Shown here: positions 45,521 to 50,204 of the stretch, in pieces
Numbering within the stretch: the first letter of the stretch is position 1
How the letters are laid out: each line of letters begins with the position of its first letter
DNA from: Rubripirellula amarantea
GTDB lineage: Bacteria > Planctomycetota > Planctomycetia > Pirellulales > Pirellulaceae
Assembly: GCF_007859865.1 (NCBI RefSeq)
Contig: NZ_SJPI01000001.1
Coordinates: forward strand, 2,170,001-2,234,000
Reading direction: 5' to 3'
Length of the DNA stretch: 64,000 nucleotides
Notes under the pieces: generated by a model
The model's input: only the letters and a program-made list of their open reading frames with translations
Database searches by the model: none
Told to the model about the DNA's origin: nothing
Made by a program: the position numbers and the translations under genes

Positions 45521-46042
45521 ATGAAATTAAATCTCGAACCTCTTCGGAATCTTGATCCGTCGATTTTCATCGCGCCCAATGCCACGGTCTTTGGCGACGT
45601 GCAGATTGGTCGGGAAGCCACGATCTGGTTTGGCGCCGTAATCCGAGGCGATACGGACACAATCAAGATCGGTACCCAAACCAACATTCAAGATCTTTGT
45701 GTCCTGCACGCCGACCCTACCTTTCCCTGCACGATCGGCGATCGTGTTACCGTGGGTCACGCGGCGGTGATCCATGGTGCGACCATCGAAAATGATGTGT
45801 TGGTCGGAATGCGTGCCGTGGTGCTTAATGGTGCTACGATCGGAACCGGCAGCGTGATCGCCGCGGGAACTTTGATTCCTGAGAACATGGTTGTGCCACC
45901 GAACTCGCTCGTGATGGGAGTTCCAGGAAAGGTGCGAGGCCAGACCAGCGAAGTTCACCAAGCCATGATCACACGAGGTGCCAAGCACTACGCGGAAGCT
46001 GGACGTCAATATCTAGCGGCACAGACGACGCAAACCAAGTGA
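45521..46042 (+). CDS. Gamma-carbonic-anhydrase-like hexapeptide repeat protein
   Basis: The 173-residue product is a left-handed beta-helix of the YrdA/PaaY family: repeated hexapeptides such as GDVQIGREATIW, GTQTNIQDLCVLHAD, and VTVGHAAVIHGATIENDVLVGM. The His residues of VLHAD and of GHAAVIHG are the zinc ligands of the trimer. Most bacterial members have weak or unproven carbonic anhydrase activity. ATG 45521 lies 11 bases after the ATP-grasp stop, so it is likely co-transcribed with the peptidase and ligase. The stop is seven bases from the convergent phosphatase gene end. Confidence 0.93.
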   Translation: MKLNLEPLRNLDPSIFIAPNATVFGDVQIGREATIWFGAVIRGDTDTIKIGTQTNIQDLCVLHADPTFPCTIGDRVTVGHAAVIHGATIENDVLVGMRAVVLNGATIGTGSVIAAGTLIPENMVVPPNSLVMGVPGKVRGQTSEVHQAMITRGAKHYAEAGRQYLAAQTTQTK

Positions 46043-46049
46043 TTGCAAT

Positions 46050-47108
46050 TTAGTCGCGATAGATCTCGTGACAGGACTTGCATAGCTCCAGCAATCGAAA
46101 AGTCGTGTTCGATAGATGATGGGTGGATTCAACCGGCTGGGGTGACAGCGATCGTTCGATAGATAATTGGTCCTGCAATTCCGTTGCCGCTTGTTCGGAC
46201 TGTTCGATCCAGCGACGGAAACGCGTGTCGGCAAGAAGACGATTCGTTTCGTCGTCATCAGACTTTCGTCGGGCGAATTCCCGAAAGTGTTCACGAATGA
46301 GAAGTGCATCGTGGGCCAGTTCTTCGCGATCGTCTTTCCATCCTGCGGACTCGGCGCTTTTGAGACGGTCGGCTAGTTCACCCACTTCTGACATCATGGA
46401 AGCTAGCGAGTTCACTTCAGCGATCTCGACGAATGTTTTCTGCATCGCATCGAGGTCTTCTGGTAAGATGCGTTTCGCTTCGGCAACCGCCTTGTGCAGA
46501 CCTTTGTAGCCGATTCCCGTGCCGGCCTGTTGCAGCACCGATTGACCCTGGGCCGTGGTAATCAGTCCTGATGCAATGCAGGCTGCTGACGCCGCTGCTG
46601 GGCCGCGATGTTTGCCGTGGTGGCAATGGATATAGATCACACCATCGGTTTGGTGCACGGCCTTCGCAAGTGATTCAACTTCATCCTGGTCGATCTTGTC
46701 ATATCCGATCGGCAAGTGGATGTAGCGAATGCCGTTGCGTCTAGCGATTTCCACTGGGGGAACGGTTGCGTCGACGGAGATAATCGTTTGCACTCCCAGA
46801 TCAGCGAGCTCGGCATACTGGTCGGTTGAAGTAGGCCCTTCACCACAGATCACTCGGGGATGGATCTGTATAAGATGTTCAAGCGTGTTGGCATCGATCG
46901 GTGCTGGATCGACAGGAGTTGCATCACCAGAAGTGCGCATGCCATGCGTTTGGTCCGCAGACGTTTGTCCATTAGGCGATAGAGCTCTTGGATCAGTCTC
47001 AGCTTGGCCGCTGGTTGGCTTGTCGGTTGCGTTTGCGAGCGAGTTGTTGAGCAAGTTGCTGAGCAAGGCAATGCTCAAGCCAAGCATCGCTCTCATGACA
47101 AGCGACAT
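46050..47108 (-). CDS. Secreted phosphatase fused to a cytochrome c'-like domain
   Basis: The 352-residue product has a signal peptide (MSLVMRAMLGLSIALLSNLLNNSLANA). Residues about 75-215 resemble a dual-specificity or tyrosine phosphatase: VQTIISVDATVPPVEIARRNG, and the signature HCHHGKHRG with Cys162 and Arg168 (Cys-x5-Arg). Residues about 225-352 are helical and finish CKSCHEIYR, a heme c motif (Cys343, Cys346, His347) placed near the C-terminus exactly as in class II cytochromes c'. The product would be a periplasmic phosphatase carrying covalent heme. ATG 47108 has AGGA eight bases upstream; the frame is open to 47237. I do not know a family with this combination. Confidence 0.8.
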   Translation of the reverse strand: MSLVMRAMLGLSIALLSNLLNNSLANATDKPTSGQAETDPRALSPNGQTSADQTHGMRTSGDATPVDPAPIDANTLEHLIQIHPRVICGEGPTSTDQYAELADLGVQTIISVDATVPPVEIARRNGIRYIHLPIGYDKIDQDEVESLAKAVHQTDGVIYIHCHHGKHRGPAAASAACIASGLITTAQGQSVLQQAGTGIGYKGLHKAVAEAKRILPEDLDAMQKTFVEIAEVNSLASMMSEVGELADRLKSAESAGWKDDREELAHDALLIREHFREFARRKSDDDETNRLLADTRFRRWIEQSEQAATELQDQLSIERSLSPQPVESTHHLSNTTFRLLELCKSCHEIYRD

Positions 47109-47439
47109 GGAAACATTCCTCTGTGCTGCTTGAAAGCTTAAGTTCACTTGTGGTGAGTTCGACGTCGCTTGAAGGTTCATAGCGATCGAACGTGAACGTT
47201 GATGAGCTGTTCGGCGGGGTGGGGAGATCATTTTCACCTCTCCATTAAACTCAACTTGTCAAGAAAAGAAAACTCTCCCTCGATAGCCACGGGTGACAAA
47301 CGAAGAGGCGTGAACGGAAGGTCACGCGTCAGAATGAATGTCTAACCTAGCATGGCTAAACCGATCAACGCTGGGCGGATCTTGGGTCAGCGTGTCTTGG
47401 CTAGTTGAATCTTGCCTAACAGGATCTAAACCCGATCGT
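47109..47439. other. Intergenic spacer
   Basis: About 330 bases lie between the diguanylate cyclase stop and the phosphatase start, both on the minus strand. I see no gene, RNA or terminator. An AGGA near 47117 is the phosphatase ribosome site. The open frames in it continue as shadows of the cyclase. Confidence 0.4.
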
Positions 47440-48375
47440 TCACGACCGAGCGATCTCCGGGGCACCGACCAGTGCGGGAGCTCGACCATCGTGGTAGTAG
47501 ACACGGTTACGGCCAATGTTTTTAGCCGCATAAAGAGCCTCGTCAGCTCGCCGAATGACTGGGCTCGACGCGAGATCCTCGCGAGGCTCACTCAGTCCAA
47601 CGCTGACGGTGATGTCCAGCGACAGATTGCCAGCGGCCATGGGATGATGTTCGATTGTCTTGCGGACTTCGTTCATCTTTTCGGCTGCTACGCGAAGCGG
47701 TCCGTCAAGAATGGCGGCAAACTCTTCTCCACCAAATCTCGCGACCATGATGGCGCTGCTAAGTTCCGTTCGCAGCGTCGAGGCAAGCTGCTGCAGCACT
47801 TGGTCGCCCGCTTGATGACCGTGGTTGTCGTTGATGGACTTGAACTTATCGATGTCGACAAGCACCAACACAAACGAGCGTCCACCGCTTCGATAGGCTG
47901 CGAACACTTCATCGAGTCGTTTGTCGAAAGCGCGACGATTGAAGAGTCCAGTTAACCCATCGGTGCGAGCCTCGGTGAGGTAGCATTCGATTTGCTGGGT
48001 TTGCTTGTCGAGCTGGCGTTCGGCCGCTTCAAGGCGATCTTGCAGTTCGCCGTTGCTATTCATGATCTGTTGCAGCAGCATCATGACTTTGTTTTCGGCA
48101 ACAGGTCCGGCAGCCGGATTGAGGCTCGCTCGAACGGCTTCGCTAAGTTTGCCTAATTCGTTTTGGTAATCCGAGACATTGCCCGAATACTCGTTGGTCC
48201 AGGAGCCCAGTTGATGTAACAACTGCAGCATCTGCTCGCGGTCATTTTCGGACAAAATTTCACCTGATTGTTGGGATCGCAAACGCGCCCATCGCATCCC
48301 AATGAGGACACCGACAGCCAGCAAGATAATTCCAAGAACGATTCCGATTAGCAAAGGAGTAATATTTTCCATCAT
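47440..48375 (-). CDS. Membrane-anchored GGDEF diguanylate cyclase
   Basis: This enzyme makes cyclic di-GMP from two GTP. The 311-residue product has one N-terminal membrane segment (LLIGIVLGIILLAVGVLIGM), a coiled-coil linker (residues about 35-135) and the GGDEF domain with GGEEF at 215-219 and LVDIDKFKSINDNHGHQAGD. No RxxD inhibitory site stands five residues upstream, so product feedback is unlikely. No PAS or GAF sensor is present; the coiled coil would transmit a signal from the membrane or a partner. Its ATG overlaps the glgC stop by four bases (48372-48375), so it is translationally coupled to glycogen synthesis. Confidence 0.94.
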   Translation of the reverse strand: MMENITPLLIGIVLGIILLAVGVLIGMRWARLRSQQSGEILSENDREQMLQLLHQLGSWTNEYSGNVSDYQNELGKLSEAVRASLNPAAGPVAENKVMMLLQQIMNSNGELQDRLEAAERQLDKQTQQIECYLTEARTDGLTGLFNRRAFDKRLDEVFAAYRSGGRSFVLVLVDIDKFKSINDNHGHQAGDQVLQQLASTLRTELSSAIMVARFGGEEFAAILDGPLRVAAEKMNEVRKTIEHHPMAAGNLSLDITVSVGLSEPREDLASSPVIRRADEALYAAKNIGRNRVYYHDGRAPALVGAPEIARS

Positions 48376-49631
48376 CGAACAACGCTCACCGTTTCACCGG
48401 TGTTTACCAATTGTTCACCACGTGCAATCACAACCAGACCGCTTTCGGTAACGGTGAAGCCCCGTTGGGCATCGAATATGGGATCGAAGCCAATTTCGGT
48501 TTCGGGTGGAATCTGCACGCCTTTGTCGACGATCACGCGACGTAGTCGGCATCGACGTCCCACCTCGACTTCATCGAATAGGATGCAATCTTCGACCGAC
48601 GCGTAGCTATTGATCCGTACGTTGGGACCAAGCACGCTTCGATGAACACGTCCGCCGCTGACGATAGCGCCTTGACAAACAATGGAATCCAACGCCTCGC
48701 CTCGACGAATCGATGGCCCACCTTCGCTGCCAAAGACAAACTTCGGTGGTGGCAGCATGGGTTGGTGAGCGCGGATAGGCCACTGAGCGTCATAAAGATT
48801 GAGTTGCGGATCGACGTCGATCAGATCCATTGTCGCTTCGAAGTACGCGTCGATGGTGCCGACGTCTCGCCAATATGCATCTCGCTTGCGATTCTCGTCC
48901 AAGAAAGGGAACGCGAATACGCGATTGGTTTTTATGGCTGCCGGAATGATGTTCTTGCCAAAATCGTGGTCGCTGTCCTCGTAGGTAGCGTCGTCGCAAA
49001 GGCACTCGTAAAGAAATCTCGCGTTAAAGACATAGATGCCCATCGATGCAAGAGCCACATCGGGGTCATCTGGCGTCGTCTTGGGTTCACTTGGCTTCTC
49101 TTCAAAACCGACGATTCGATGGTCGAGGTCAGCCTGGATCACGCCAAATTCTTTGGCTTCGTCACGACTAACACGAAGTGCACCGATGGTGATGTCCGCA
49201 TCCATCTTGCGATGGAATTCGACCATGGGGCCATAGTTCATCTTGTAGATGTGGTCGCCGCCTAGGATGACAACGTCGCGCGGTTCTTCGCGTTCGATGG
49301 CGTAGATGTTTTGATAGACCGCATCGGCGGTACCCTGATACCAGCTATCGTCAAATCGCTGTTGAGGCGGAACGACGTCAATGAACTCACCCAGTTCACG
49401 GCAAAAGTAGTTGCGCCAAGCTAGGTTGATGTGCCGATCGAGCGATTGAGCCTTGTACTGCGTCAACAGTAGGATCTTCCGCATGCCGCTGTTAAGGCAA
49501 TTGCTAAGGACAAAGTCAACAATCCGGTACAAACCGCCAAACGGAACCGCCGGTTTTGCGCGATCGCGGGTCAGAGGTTCCAGGCGCGAACCTTTTCCTC
49601 CTGCCAAAATTACCGTTACCGTGTCTCGCAT
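48372..49631 (-). CDS. glgC: Glucose-1-phosphate adenylyltransferase
   Basis: GlgC makes ADP-glucose, the committed step of glycogen synthesis. The 419-residue product has TVILAGGKGSRLEPLTRDRAKPAVPFGG with the pyrophosphorylase signature, then VVILGGDHIYKMNYG, and a C-terminal beta-helix domain. Regulatory and sugar sites (GLYRIVDFVLSN, FEEKP) are present. ATG 49631 has AGGA five bases upstream; a longer start adds five residues. It is followed, with a four-base overlap, by a diguanylate cyclase. glgA and glgB are not in the window. Confidence 0.96.
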   Translation of the reverse strand: MRDTVTVILAGGKGSRLEPLTRDRAKPAVPFGGLYRIVDFVLSNCLNSGMRKILLLTQYKAQSLDRHINLAWRNYFCRELGEFIDVVPPQQRFDDSWYQGTADAVYQNIYAIEREEPRDVVILGGDHIYKMNYGPMVEFHRKMDADITIGALRVSRDEAKEFGVIQADLDHRIVGFEEKPSEPKTTPDDPDVALASMGIYVFNARFLYECLCDDATYEDSDHDFGKNIIPAAIKTNRVFAFPFLDENRKRDAYWRDVGTIDAYFEATMDLIDVDPQLNLYDAQWPIRAHQPMLPPPKFVFGSEGGPSIRRGEALDSIVCQGAIVSGGRVHRSVLGPNVRINSYASVEDCILFDEVEVGRRCRLRRVIVDKGVQIPPETEIGFDPIFDAQRGFTVTESGLVVIARGEQLVNTGETVSVVR

Positions 49632-50204
49632 TCGATTCCTGCACATTCCATTGGTTGTTTAGGGATAGTCCAGAACGACTTTCGACACGTGGATCTTCGC
49701 AGTTCCGCACAGCGAGATAATTCGAGATCGTACCGATCGAGAGAGAACGACATGACTGTCTTATTCCCGCTTCTATCGGATCTTCCAAGGAAGAGTTGTG
49801 TGGCGAAGTGGTTTCTGAACGATTCCTTAATGCAATCAAAGTTTACCAGACTCAAGCGGTTTGGTGCGATAGTCAATTCCGCCGAATGGTCTTGCAAAAC
49901 GTCACGTAATTCCTCTTTCCAGCATTCTGCATTCCACTCAGTCACGATTCCACTCGGCCCCGATCCTAAATCCGCGAGTCGCTAGATTGGATCGTCTCTC
50001 AAACACGAGGGCCACCAAGATGCAGATCGATAATCGGACTGCAATTCACCAATGGTTGACTTTGGGTAAATTGCGTAAGTAGAACGCATCTGCAAACGTG
50101 CGTCGGTTGATGACAGGTCGTTTGCAGCGATCAACGATCTTCCGCTACGCCGAACGATTCTGGTACATCCAATCCCATTCATACCGTTGGCTCATTGTGG
50201 ATAC
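49632..50204. other. Divergent intergenic region glgC / outer-membrane protein
   Basis: About 570 bases without a gene. Short open frames are present on both strands (for example 49616-49945 minus) but none has domains or a good start. The region contains the divergent promoters; I cannot locate them reliably. Confidence 0.4.

Follow-up and report, generated by a model that had tools for sequence, protein, structure and literature searches.

Does one gene of the planctomycete Rubripirellula amarantea encode an exported cysteine phosphatase joined to a cytochrome c'-like heme domain, and if so, what might the heme do for the enzyme? The gene lies in the window, a stretch of 64,000 nucleotides from contig NZ_SJPI01000001.1, and a preliminary description made from the sequence alone had proposed such a fusion, possibly regulated by redox state or by gas. 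That description named a signal peptide, a Cys-x5-Arg signature at Cys162-Arg168 and a C-terminal CKSCHEIYR following a four-helix-like region, all in one unbroken frame. Each of these elements was recovered: the frame is open over its 352 codons, the N-terminus resembles a Sec-type signal peptide, Cys162 and Arg168 fall exactly where they had been placed, and the motif is present (the full C-terminus reads CKSCHEIYRD) at the end of a helical bundle predicted by AlphaFold2. A linker separates the signal peptide from the phosphatase domain. The features, with coordinates of the window, are as follows.

46050 to 47108, minus strand: whole gene for a predicted exported phosphatase-cytochrome fusion of 352 residues, with the ATG at 47108 and the stop at 46050-46052 (translation, homologues)
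47028 to 47108, minus strand: signal peptide, residues 1-27, with cleavage near Ala27 (judged by eye)
46440 to 46892, minus strand: dual-specificity/PTP-type catalytic domain, residues about 73-223 (Pfam PTP-SAK, predicted fold)
46605 to 46628, minus strand: P-loop HCHHGKHR, residues 161-168, with Cys162 and Arg168 predicted to be catalytic (conservation)
46698 to 46700, minus strand: Asp137, candidate general acid and counterpart of TpbA Asp105 (phmmer alignment to TpbA)
46053 to 46415, minus strand: C-terminal four-helix bundle, class II cytochrome c-like, residues 232-352 (AlphaFold2 model, fold and profile matches)
46392 to 46394, minus strand: Met239, predicted sixth (distal) heme ligand (81/81 sequences and aligned-range mapping)
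46068 to 46082, minus strand: putative heme c attachment motif CKSCH, residues 343-347, with His347 the predicted proximal ligand (26/26 complete relatives, 80/80 loci)

Two halves of one exported protein

Export appears to be general among relatives. In the set of 80 homologous loci described below, 78 extend far enough upstream for the N-terminus to be judged, and 77 of these have a hydrophobic N-terminal stretch; a crude pattern search picked out a lipobox in 23.

The N-terminal half has the traits of the PTP superfamily, namely an HCX5R P-loop, an acid Asp before the P-loop and a predicted PTP fold. A PTP-like profile search, proposed in the preliminary description, returned Pfam PTP-SAK above its cut-off for the query protein (31.3 versus 27 bits), and the predicted fold of this half matches DUSP23 (Z 16.6, rmsd 2.6, 140 aligned), TpbA (Z 15.9, rmsd 3.0, 151 aligned) and DUF442 (Z 15.6). 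The P-loop Cys and Arg are found in 81/81 aligned sequences and HCX5R in 137/137 fused loci, some of them fetched twice; the exact HCHHGKHR occurs in 111 of these 137 and the His of GKHR in 134, with the Lys replaced by Arg in 14. At the Asp137 column, which phmmer aligned to TpbA Asp105, there is Asp in 74 of 81 sequences, Glu in two and another residue in five.

By sequence, the best relative of solved structure is TpbA of Pseudomonas aeruginosa (E 0.0046; PDB 2m3v, 4r0s), also an exported dual-specificity phosphatase with an HCxxGxxR loop and a counterpart of the acid Asp, but one whose solved chains carry no heme domain. The TpbA loop is reported as HCKHGNNR, compared with HCHHGKHR here, and Asp105 is the proposed general acid (PMC4409338). 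The GKHR end of the P-loop is shared with the PFA-DSPs (Siw14, AtPFA-DSP1), which are also matched by the predicted fold. PFA-DSPs are plant and fungal enzymes that act on inositol pyrophosphates, and we know of no heme domain in any of them. In AtPFA-DSP1, Lys154, His155 and Arg156 follow Cys150 in the P-loop, and mutation of His155 costs 95-98% of the activity (PMC9038691). The same paper describes PFA-DSPs as having no Asp/Glu acid (PMC9038691), whereas here an acid, assigned by alignment, is largely kept (Asp in 74/81).

In NCBIfam, the protein drew only sulfur-transferase matches far below cut-off, plus one match at chance level, and its assignment as a TIGR01244/Blh sulfur transferase was rejected (22.7 bits versus a cut-off of 85.85). 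The weak BLH_phosphatase and TIGR01244 matches, and the coexistence of a heme domain and a reactive Cys on one chain, could nonetheless be read as signs of a redox enzyme, in which the P-loop Cys would carry out thiol, persulfide or similar chemistry while the fused heme exchanged electrons. Such an enzyme seems unlikely to us, given that shortfall in the TIGR01244 score, an invariant catalytic Arg and a largely kept acid Asp, both as expected for phosphoryl transfer, and closest solved relatives that are phosphatases.

For the C-terminal half, the proposed search with the class II cytochrome profile bore out the family match, but not one for the query protein itself. Cytochrom_C_2 (PF01322) aligns with residues 235-351 of the query protein at 13.5 bits, below the cut-off of 26.5, and gives no match at E 0.01. 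Among family members, it picks up 20 of 26 at E 0.1 and, with the limit set at E 0.01, 51 of 60 (lowest E 1e-8), the query protein not being one of the 51. A profile of 60 C-terminal halves found cytochrome c' 3vrc as its best solved sequence (E 4.5e-05). In an AlphaFold2 model based on 81 aligned sequences (pLDDT 94.8, pTM 0.86), this half forms four long helices. When this half was modelled alone, the best match among Foldseek's candidates was to the Kusta0087/0088 complex, in three entries (Z 13.3-13.5 over 102-103 aligned residues, with rmsd 2.1 at Z 13.5), followed by Shewanella cytochromes c' (Z 12.6) and a designed bundle (Z 12.5). According to the structure-comparison tool, a Z of 13.5 for a helical bundle is barely above common arrangements, and Foldseek itself returned no match to this half at E 0.001 or better (best E 0.035); the predicted fold by itself is weak evidence for the cytochrome assignment. 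Taking profile, predicted fold and conserved CxxCHxxxR together, we regard the C-terminal half as firmly assigned to a class II cytochrome c-like bundle. We chose 'class II cytochrome c-like' as the name because the query protein falls below the Pfam cut-off, which is a detection threshold and not a trait.

The bundle resembles the class II cytochromes c (c', c556, b562/cb562 and Kusta0087/0088 of Kuenenia) in its C-terminal CxxCHxxxR and four-helix layout. The solved relatives, however, are small single-domain proteins of about 105-135 residues, whereas the bundle described here forms the C-terminal part of an enzyme and, set against them, carries an invariant Met and Glu and a near-invariant Arg. 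These residues, Met239, Glu277 and Arg280, do not vary in a 26-member alignment, and in 81 sequences the counts are 81, 81 and 80, respectively. Cytochrom_C_asm proteins are encoded in the same genome and, along with export, fit heme attachment outside the cytoplasm. The genome also encodes two exported-looking proteins that end in CxxCH helices and have no phosphatase (L141:673-1653 and L142:964-1656; Cytochrom_C_2 E 2.4e-05 and 0.023), the first of which scores 20.8 bits against the C-terminal profile of the family.

The family, its fused form and its split form

The preliminary description had called for a look at other planctomycetes, and held that loss of CxxCH from close homologues, or two genes merged by a sequencing error, would count against a fusion. 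Within a set of 60 genomes, the organism's own included, 29 had a match to the protein. Family members occupy 27 places in this set, one of which (L018) runs off its contig, leaving 26 complete copies including the query; three other matches (L028-L030) are remote phosphatases with no C-terminal domain, and one more has no assigned locus. HCxxGxxR and CxxCHxxxR are both kept in 26/26 complete members. In a larger species collection, searched with seed peptides taken solely from the phosphatase half, we found 550 relatives and checked the heme domain in the best 80. In 80/80 of these loci, CxxCHxxxR stands close to the C-terminus and shares its frame with HCxxGxxR, although the loci were chosen by how well they match the full query, a ranking biased towards complete copies, and the count is not an unbiased rate. 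By record label, 70 of the 80 are Planctomycetota, five are Verrucomicrobiota, an occurrence that rests on these labels only, and five carry no phylum label. The two annotated records found, both from plasmids, read 'hypothetical protein' and 'dual specificity protein phosphatase'. The gene is also contained in metagenome bins whose titles name Kuenenia stuttgartiensis and Akkermansia muciniphila (L058, L105), labels that look unreliable.

Across 294 genomes of the phylum, 179 had a match of any kind. Among the matches listed, both domains are covered at no fewer than 117 places, distributed over 116 genomes, 114 of the places reaching E 1.9e-53 or better and the last 1.2e-38; three further places are cut off, and the weaker matches, from E 1.1e-30 onward, cover the phosphatase half only, save one loose C-terminal piece. 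The 30 best-matching loci of the phylum were fetched, and all 30 have both motifs in a single frame. Fifteen of the both-domain matches had been flagged as having one stop inside. In the three of these that we fetched (L116, L128, L137), the P-loop and CxxCH share one open frame, as they do in all 30 fetched loci, and we therefore take the flagged stop to be the natural end of the gene.

The 60-genome, 80-locus and phylum sets overlap, so that the 137 fetched loci with a single-frame fused architecture include some genes fetched twice. The recurrence of this architecture across the 137 loci excludes a sequencing or gene-merger artefact, of which we saw no sign, and CxxCH was present in every complete close homologue examined. 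The phosphatase and the predicted cytochrome-like bundle are kept together as a unit in Planctomycetota and, to judge by record labels, in some Verrucomicrobiota.

Some genomes appear to hold the two parts as separate genes. Twenty phosphatase-half matches from the 294-genome search were fetched with their flanks, those of L183 and L189 being shortened by contig ends. The two strongest phosphatase-only matches, with P-loops HCKNGKHR (L174/L175) and HCHHGKHR (L173/L176), both adjoin a same-strand gene, by eye that of a lipoprotein, ending in CVECHTTHR or CVDCHTLFK, and the genes of the L174 pair overlap by four bases.

L174:1173-2167 and L173:470-2129: split pairs of a phosphatase gene and a CxxCH lipoprotein gene

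A CxxCH lipoprotein neighbour was found at 0/18 of the weaker phosphatase-only matches and, as a control, nowhere in 843 kb of the 80 fused loci; the contrast of 2/2 versus 0/18 gives a Fisher p of 0.005, post hoc. Against the family profile the split partners score weakly, at 12 bits, yet above all 200 shuffles, and against Cytochrom_C_2 they give E 0.0012 and 0.036. In the class to which the L174 pair belongs, the phosphatase occurs in 17/17 genomes searched, and only that of L174 is visibly split, as judged by open-frame lengths. The L173 phosphatase starts near a contig end, no signal peptide is apparent, and its first part gives a weak tRNA_bind match, so that its export is unsure. The same protein (L173:1182-2129, minus strand) seems by eye to carry a degenerate phosphatase-like repeat behind the first one. 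The occurrence of the parts as adjacent genes in some genomes and as a single protein elsewhere argues that they work together.

In the fused proteins, the pairwise distances measured in one half correlate with those in the other at 0.80 (81 sequences, with 0 of 999 permutations as high), and the mean identities of the halves are 58% and 38% in the same sequences. In a quick tree of the phosphatase domain (160 rows, 146 of them different, few columns, with L030 left out and L018 counted as fused), the 138 fused rows make up one side of a branch with an SH-aLRT of 91, below the tool's mark of 95. On the phosphatase-only side, the split copies L153 and L154 form long branches. As judged from these sequence comparisons, the phosphatase half and the C-terminal half are co-inherited.

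Predicted heme ligation, proposed mechanism and genomic setting

The likely ligands of the heme bear directly on what it could sense. Residues 8-126 of the model align with residues 1-106 of cytochrome cb562 (3nmi), and residues 7-127 with 25-129 of Kusta0087/0088 chain A. Mapped from the ends of these aligned ranges, assuming no gap, Met14 of the domain (Met239 of the protein, in the first helix of the bundle) falls on b562 position 7 and Kusta position 32, and His122 on b562 position 102; the heme ligands of b562 are Met7 and His102. Entry titles of 6r6n and 6r6o report position 32 mutated to Met or Gly, a position that may not be that of chain A, and an HMM alignment to b562 puts Met7 three residues off, in a stretch worth 2.5 bits. 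Because an invariant Met falls, by this mapping, on the site of the sixth ligand, we predict His/Met ligation and a six-coordinate, closed heme, more like those of b562/c556 than that of gas-binding c'. Ligation of this kind would favour redox sensing over an open gas site.

The preliminary description had invoked the binding of NO or CO by cytochromes c'. The class II cytochrome c-like domain on which that idea drew is borne out by our analysis, but the gas-binding part sits poorly with Met239 at the predicted sixth-ligand site in 81/81 sequences. A gas-sensing phosphatase would need a heme that is effectively five-coordinate, or whose Met is displaced, such that NO or CO binding controls activity. 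The class II fold and the resemblance to cytochromes c', some of them NO-binding (title of 4cx9), are in keeping with this, but a Met at the predicted distal site throughout is unlike an open hydrophobic distal pocket, and we regard gas sensing as improbable.

We instead propose, with slightly more confidence than doubt, that the protein is an extracytoplasmic hemoprotein phosphatase, a TpbA-like cysteine phosphatase gated by a c-type heme. Heme c would be attached at Cys343 and Cys346, with His347 and Met239 as axial ligands. Catalysis would run via a phosphocysteine on Cys162, with Arg168 holding the phosphate, Asp137 serving as the acid and the His-rich, PFA-DSP-like GKHR loop assisting. 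Electron carriers outside the cytoplasmic membrane would set the redox state of the heme, which would switch the phosphatase through the domain interface, and dephosphorylation of an exported substrate, perhaps a phosphoprotein, polyphosphate or phospho-sugar, would then track respiratory or redox state. Redox gating by the heme is in our judgement the most likely reading, ahead of gas sensing and of direct redox chemistry on the cysteine.

The genomic neighbourhood was searched for partners and substrates. No conserved operon emerged from the 81 loci clustered (80 loci plus the query): the largest neighbour clusters, the gene itself aside, hold 9, 8 and 7 loci, those of 9 and 7 presumably being common planctomycete DUF1501 and PSCyt-type genes, and no neighbour cluster of at least four loci includes the query locus. 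Upstream of the query gene lies a gene for a GGDEF diguanylate cyclase with, by eye, one N-terminal membrane helix (47440-48375, minus strand), and overlapping it by four bases is what we take to be an ADP-glucose pyrophosphorylase-like gene (48372-49646, minus strand). The GGDEF gene raised the idea of a c-di-GMP link like that of TpbA with the cyclase TpbB, which we rejected because the query locus belongs to no neighbour cluster of four or more. A scan of 45900-47700 found no promoter and two terminator-like sites, versus 1.9 expected. One inverted repeat was seen nearby, a 12-base palindrome at 47574-47589.

Cytochrome c oxidase genes lie within about 6 kb of 4/80 loci (L081, L083, L099 and L101, three of which have very similar surroundings) and near the plasmid copy of Planctomyces sp. 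SH-PL62 (L151); they were not found near the other 76 loci or the Aquisphaera plasmid copy. The oxidase genes beside these five copies hint at respiration. A DUF3365-type gene occurs near two family members, L151 and L050. Proximity to oxidase genes would also suit a passive heme domain, a docking or electron-carrier module that brings the phosphatase to a respiratory complex or shields its Cys from oxidation with no gating, but the 76 loci and the Aquisphaera copy with no such genes argue against this, and a bundle in which Met and Glu never vary and Arg hardly does points beyond a tether; we consider it distinctly unlikely. That the CxxCH holds a metal or a disulfide instead of heme is very improbable, given a conserved CxxCHxxxR at the end of a predicted four-helix bundle, the matches to class II cytochromes by profile and predicted fold, the export of the protein (with a lipobox in some members) and the genes for cytochrome c assembly that the genome holds.

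For the proposed heme-gated phosphatase, two further fusions hint at a carbohydrate-related substrate. One is a 763-residue frame that runs off the end of its locus (L021:1378-3666, minus strand), with matches to 3-keto-disaccharide hydrolase, GDSL hydrolase and phosphatase and a C-terminal CRECHAAHR; the other is a family member with an N-terminal NPCBM/NEW2 domain (L015:1-2337, plus strand).

Relation to known heme sensors and meaning

We found no description of a phosphatase-cytochrome architecture in the titles and abstract openings of the papers listed by our searches of the open-licence PMC literature, and consider the fusion a new combination of two known kinds of domain. In Tll0287-like/DUF3365 proteins and in periplasmic domains of Geobacter chemoreceptors, a c-type heme serves as an extracytoplasmic redox sensor. 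The protein described here is like them in having a c-type heme, predicted in our case, outside the cytoplasm. Their folds and outputs differ from those of the phosphatase-cytochrome fusion and, to our knowledge, none of them is a cysteine phosphatase.

The redox sensitivity that cysteine phosphatases owe to their own cysteine is well known. A phosphatase with its own covalent heme, as predicted here, would be a different route linking electron flow to dephosphorylation. The extracytoplasmic setting matters, since bacterial phospho-signalling there is poorly known, and the family is a common one, as its 117 or more both-domain places in the phylum attest. The broader claim, of a widespread class in which a six-coordinate c-type heme reads the redox pool and switches an extracytoplasmic cysteine phosphatase, is tentative and in our estimate falls just short of an even chance. 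If it is true, a redox-gated phosphatase would occur both as a fused protein and as a two-gene pair, and planctomycetes and verrucomicrobia would possess a heme-controlled switch for phospho-signalling or phosphate scavenging outside the cytoplasm.
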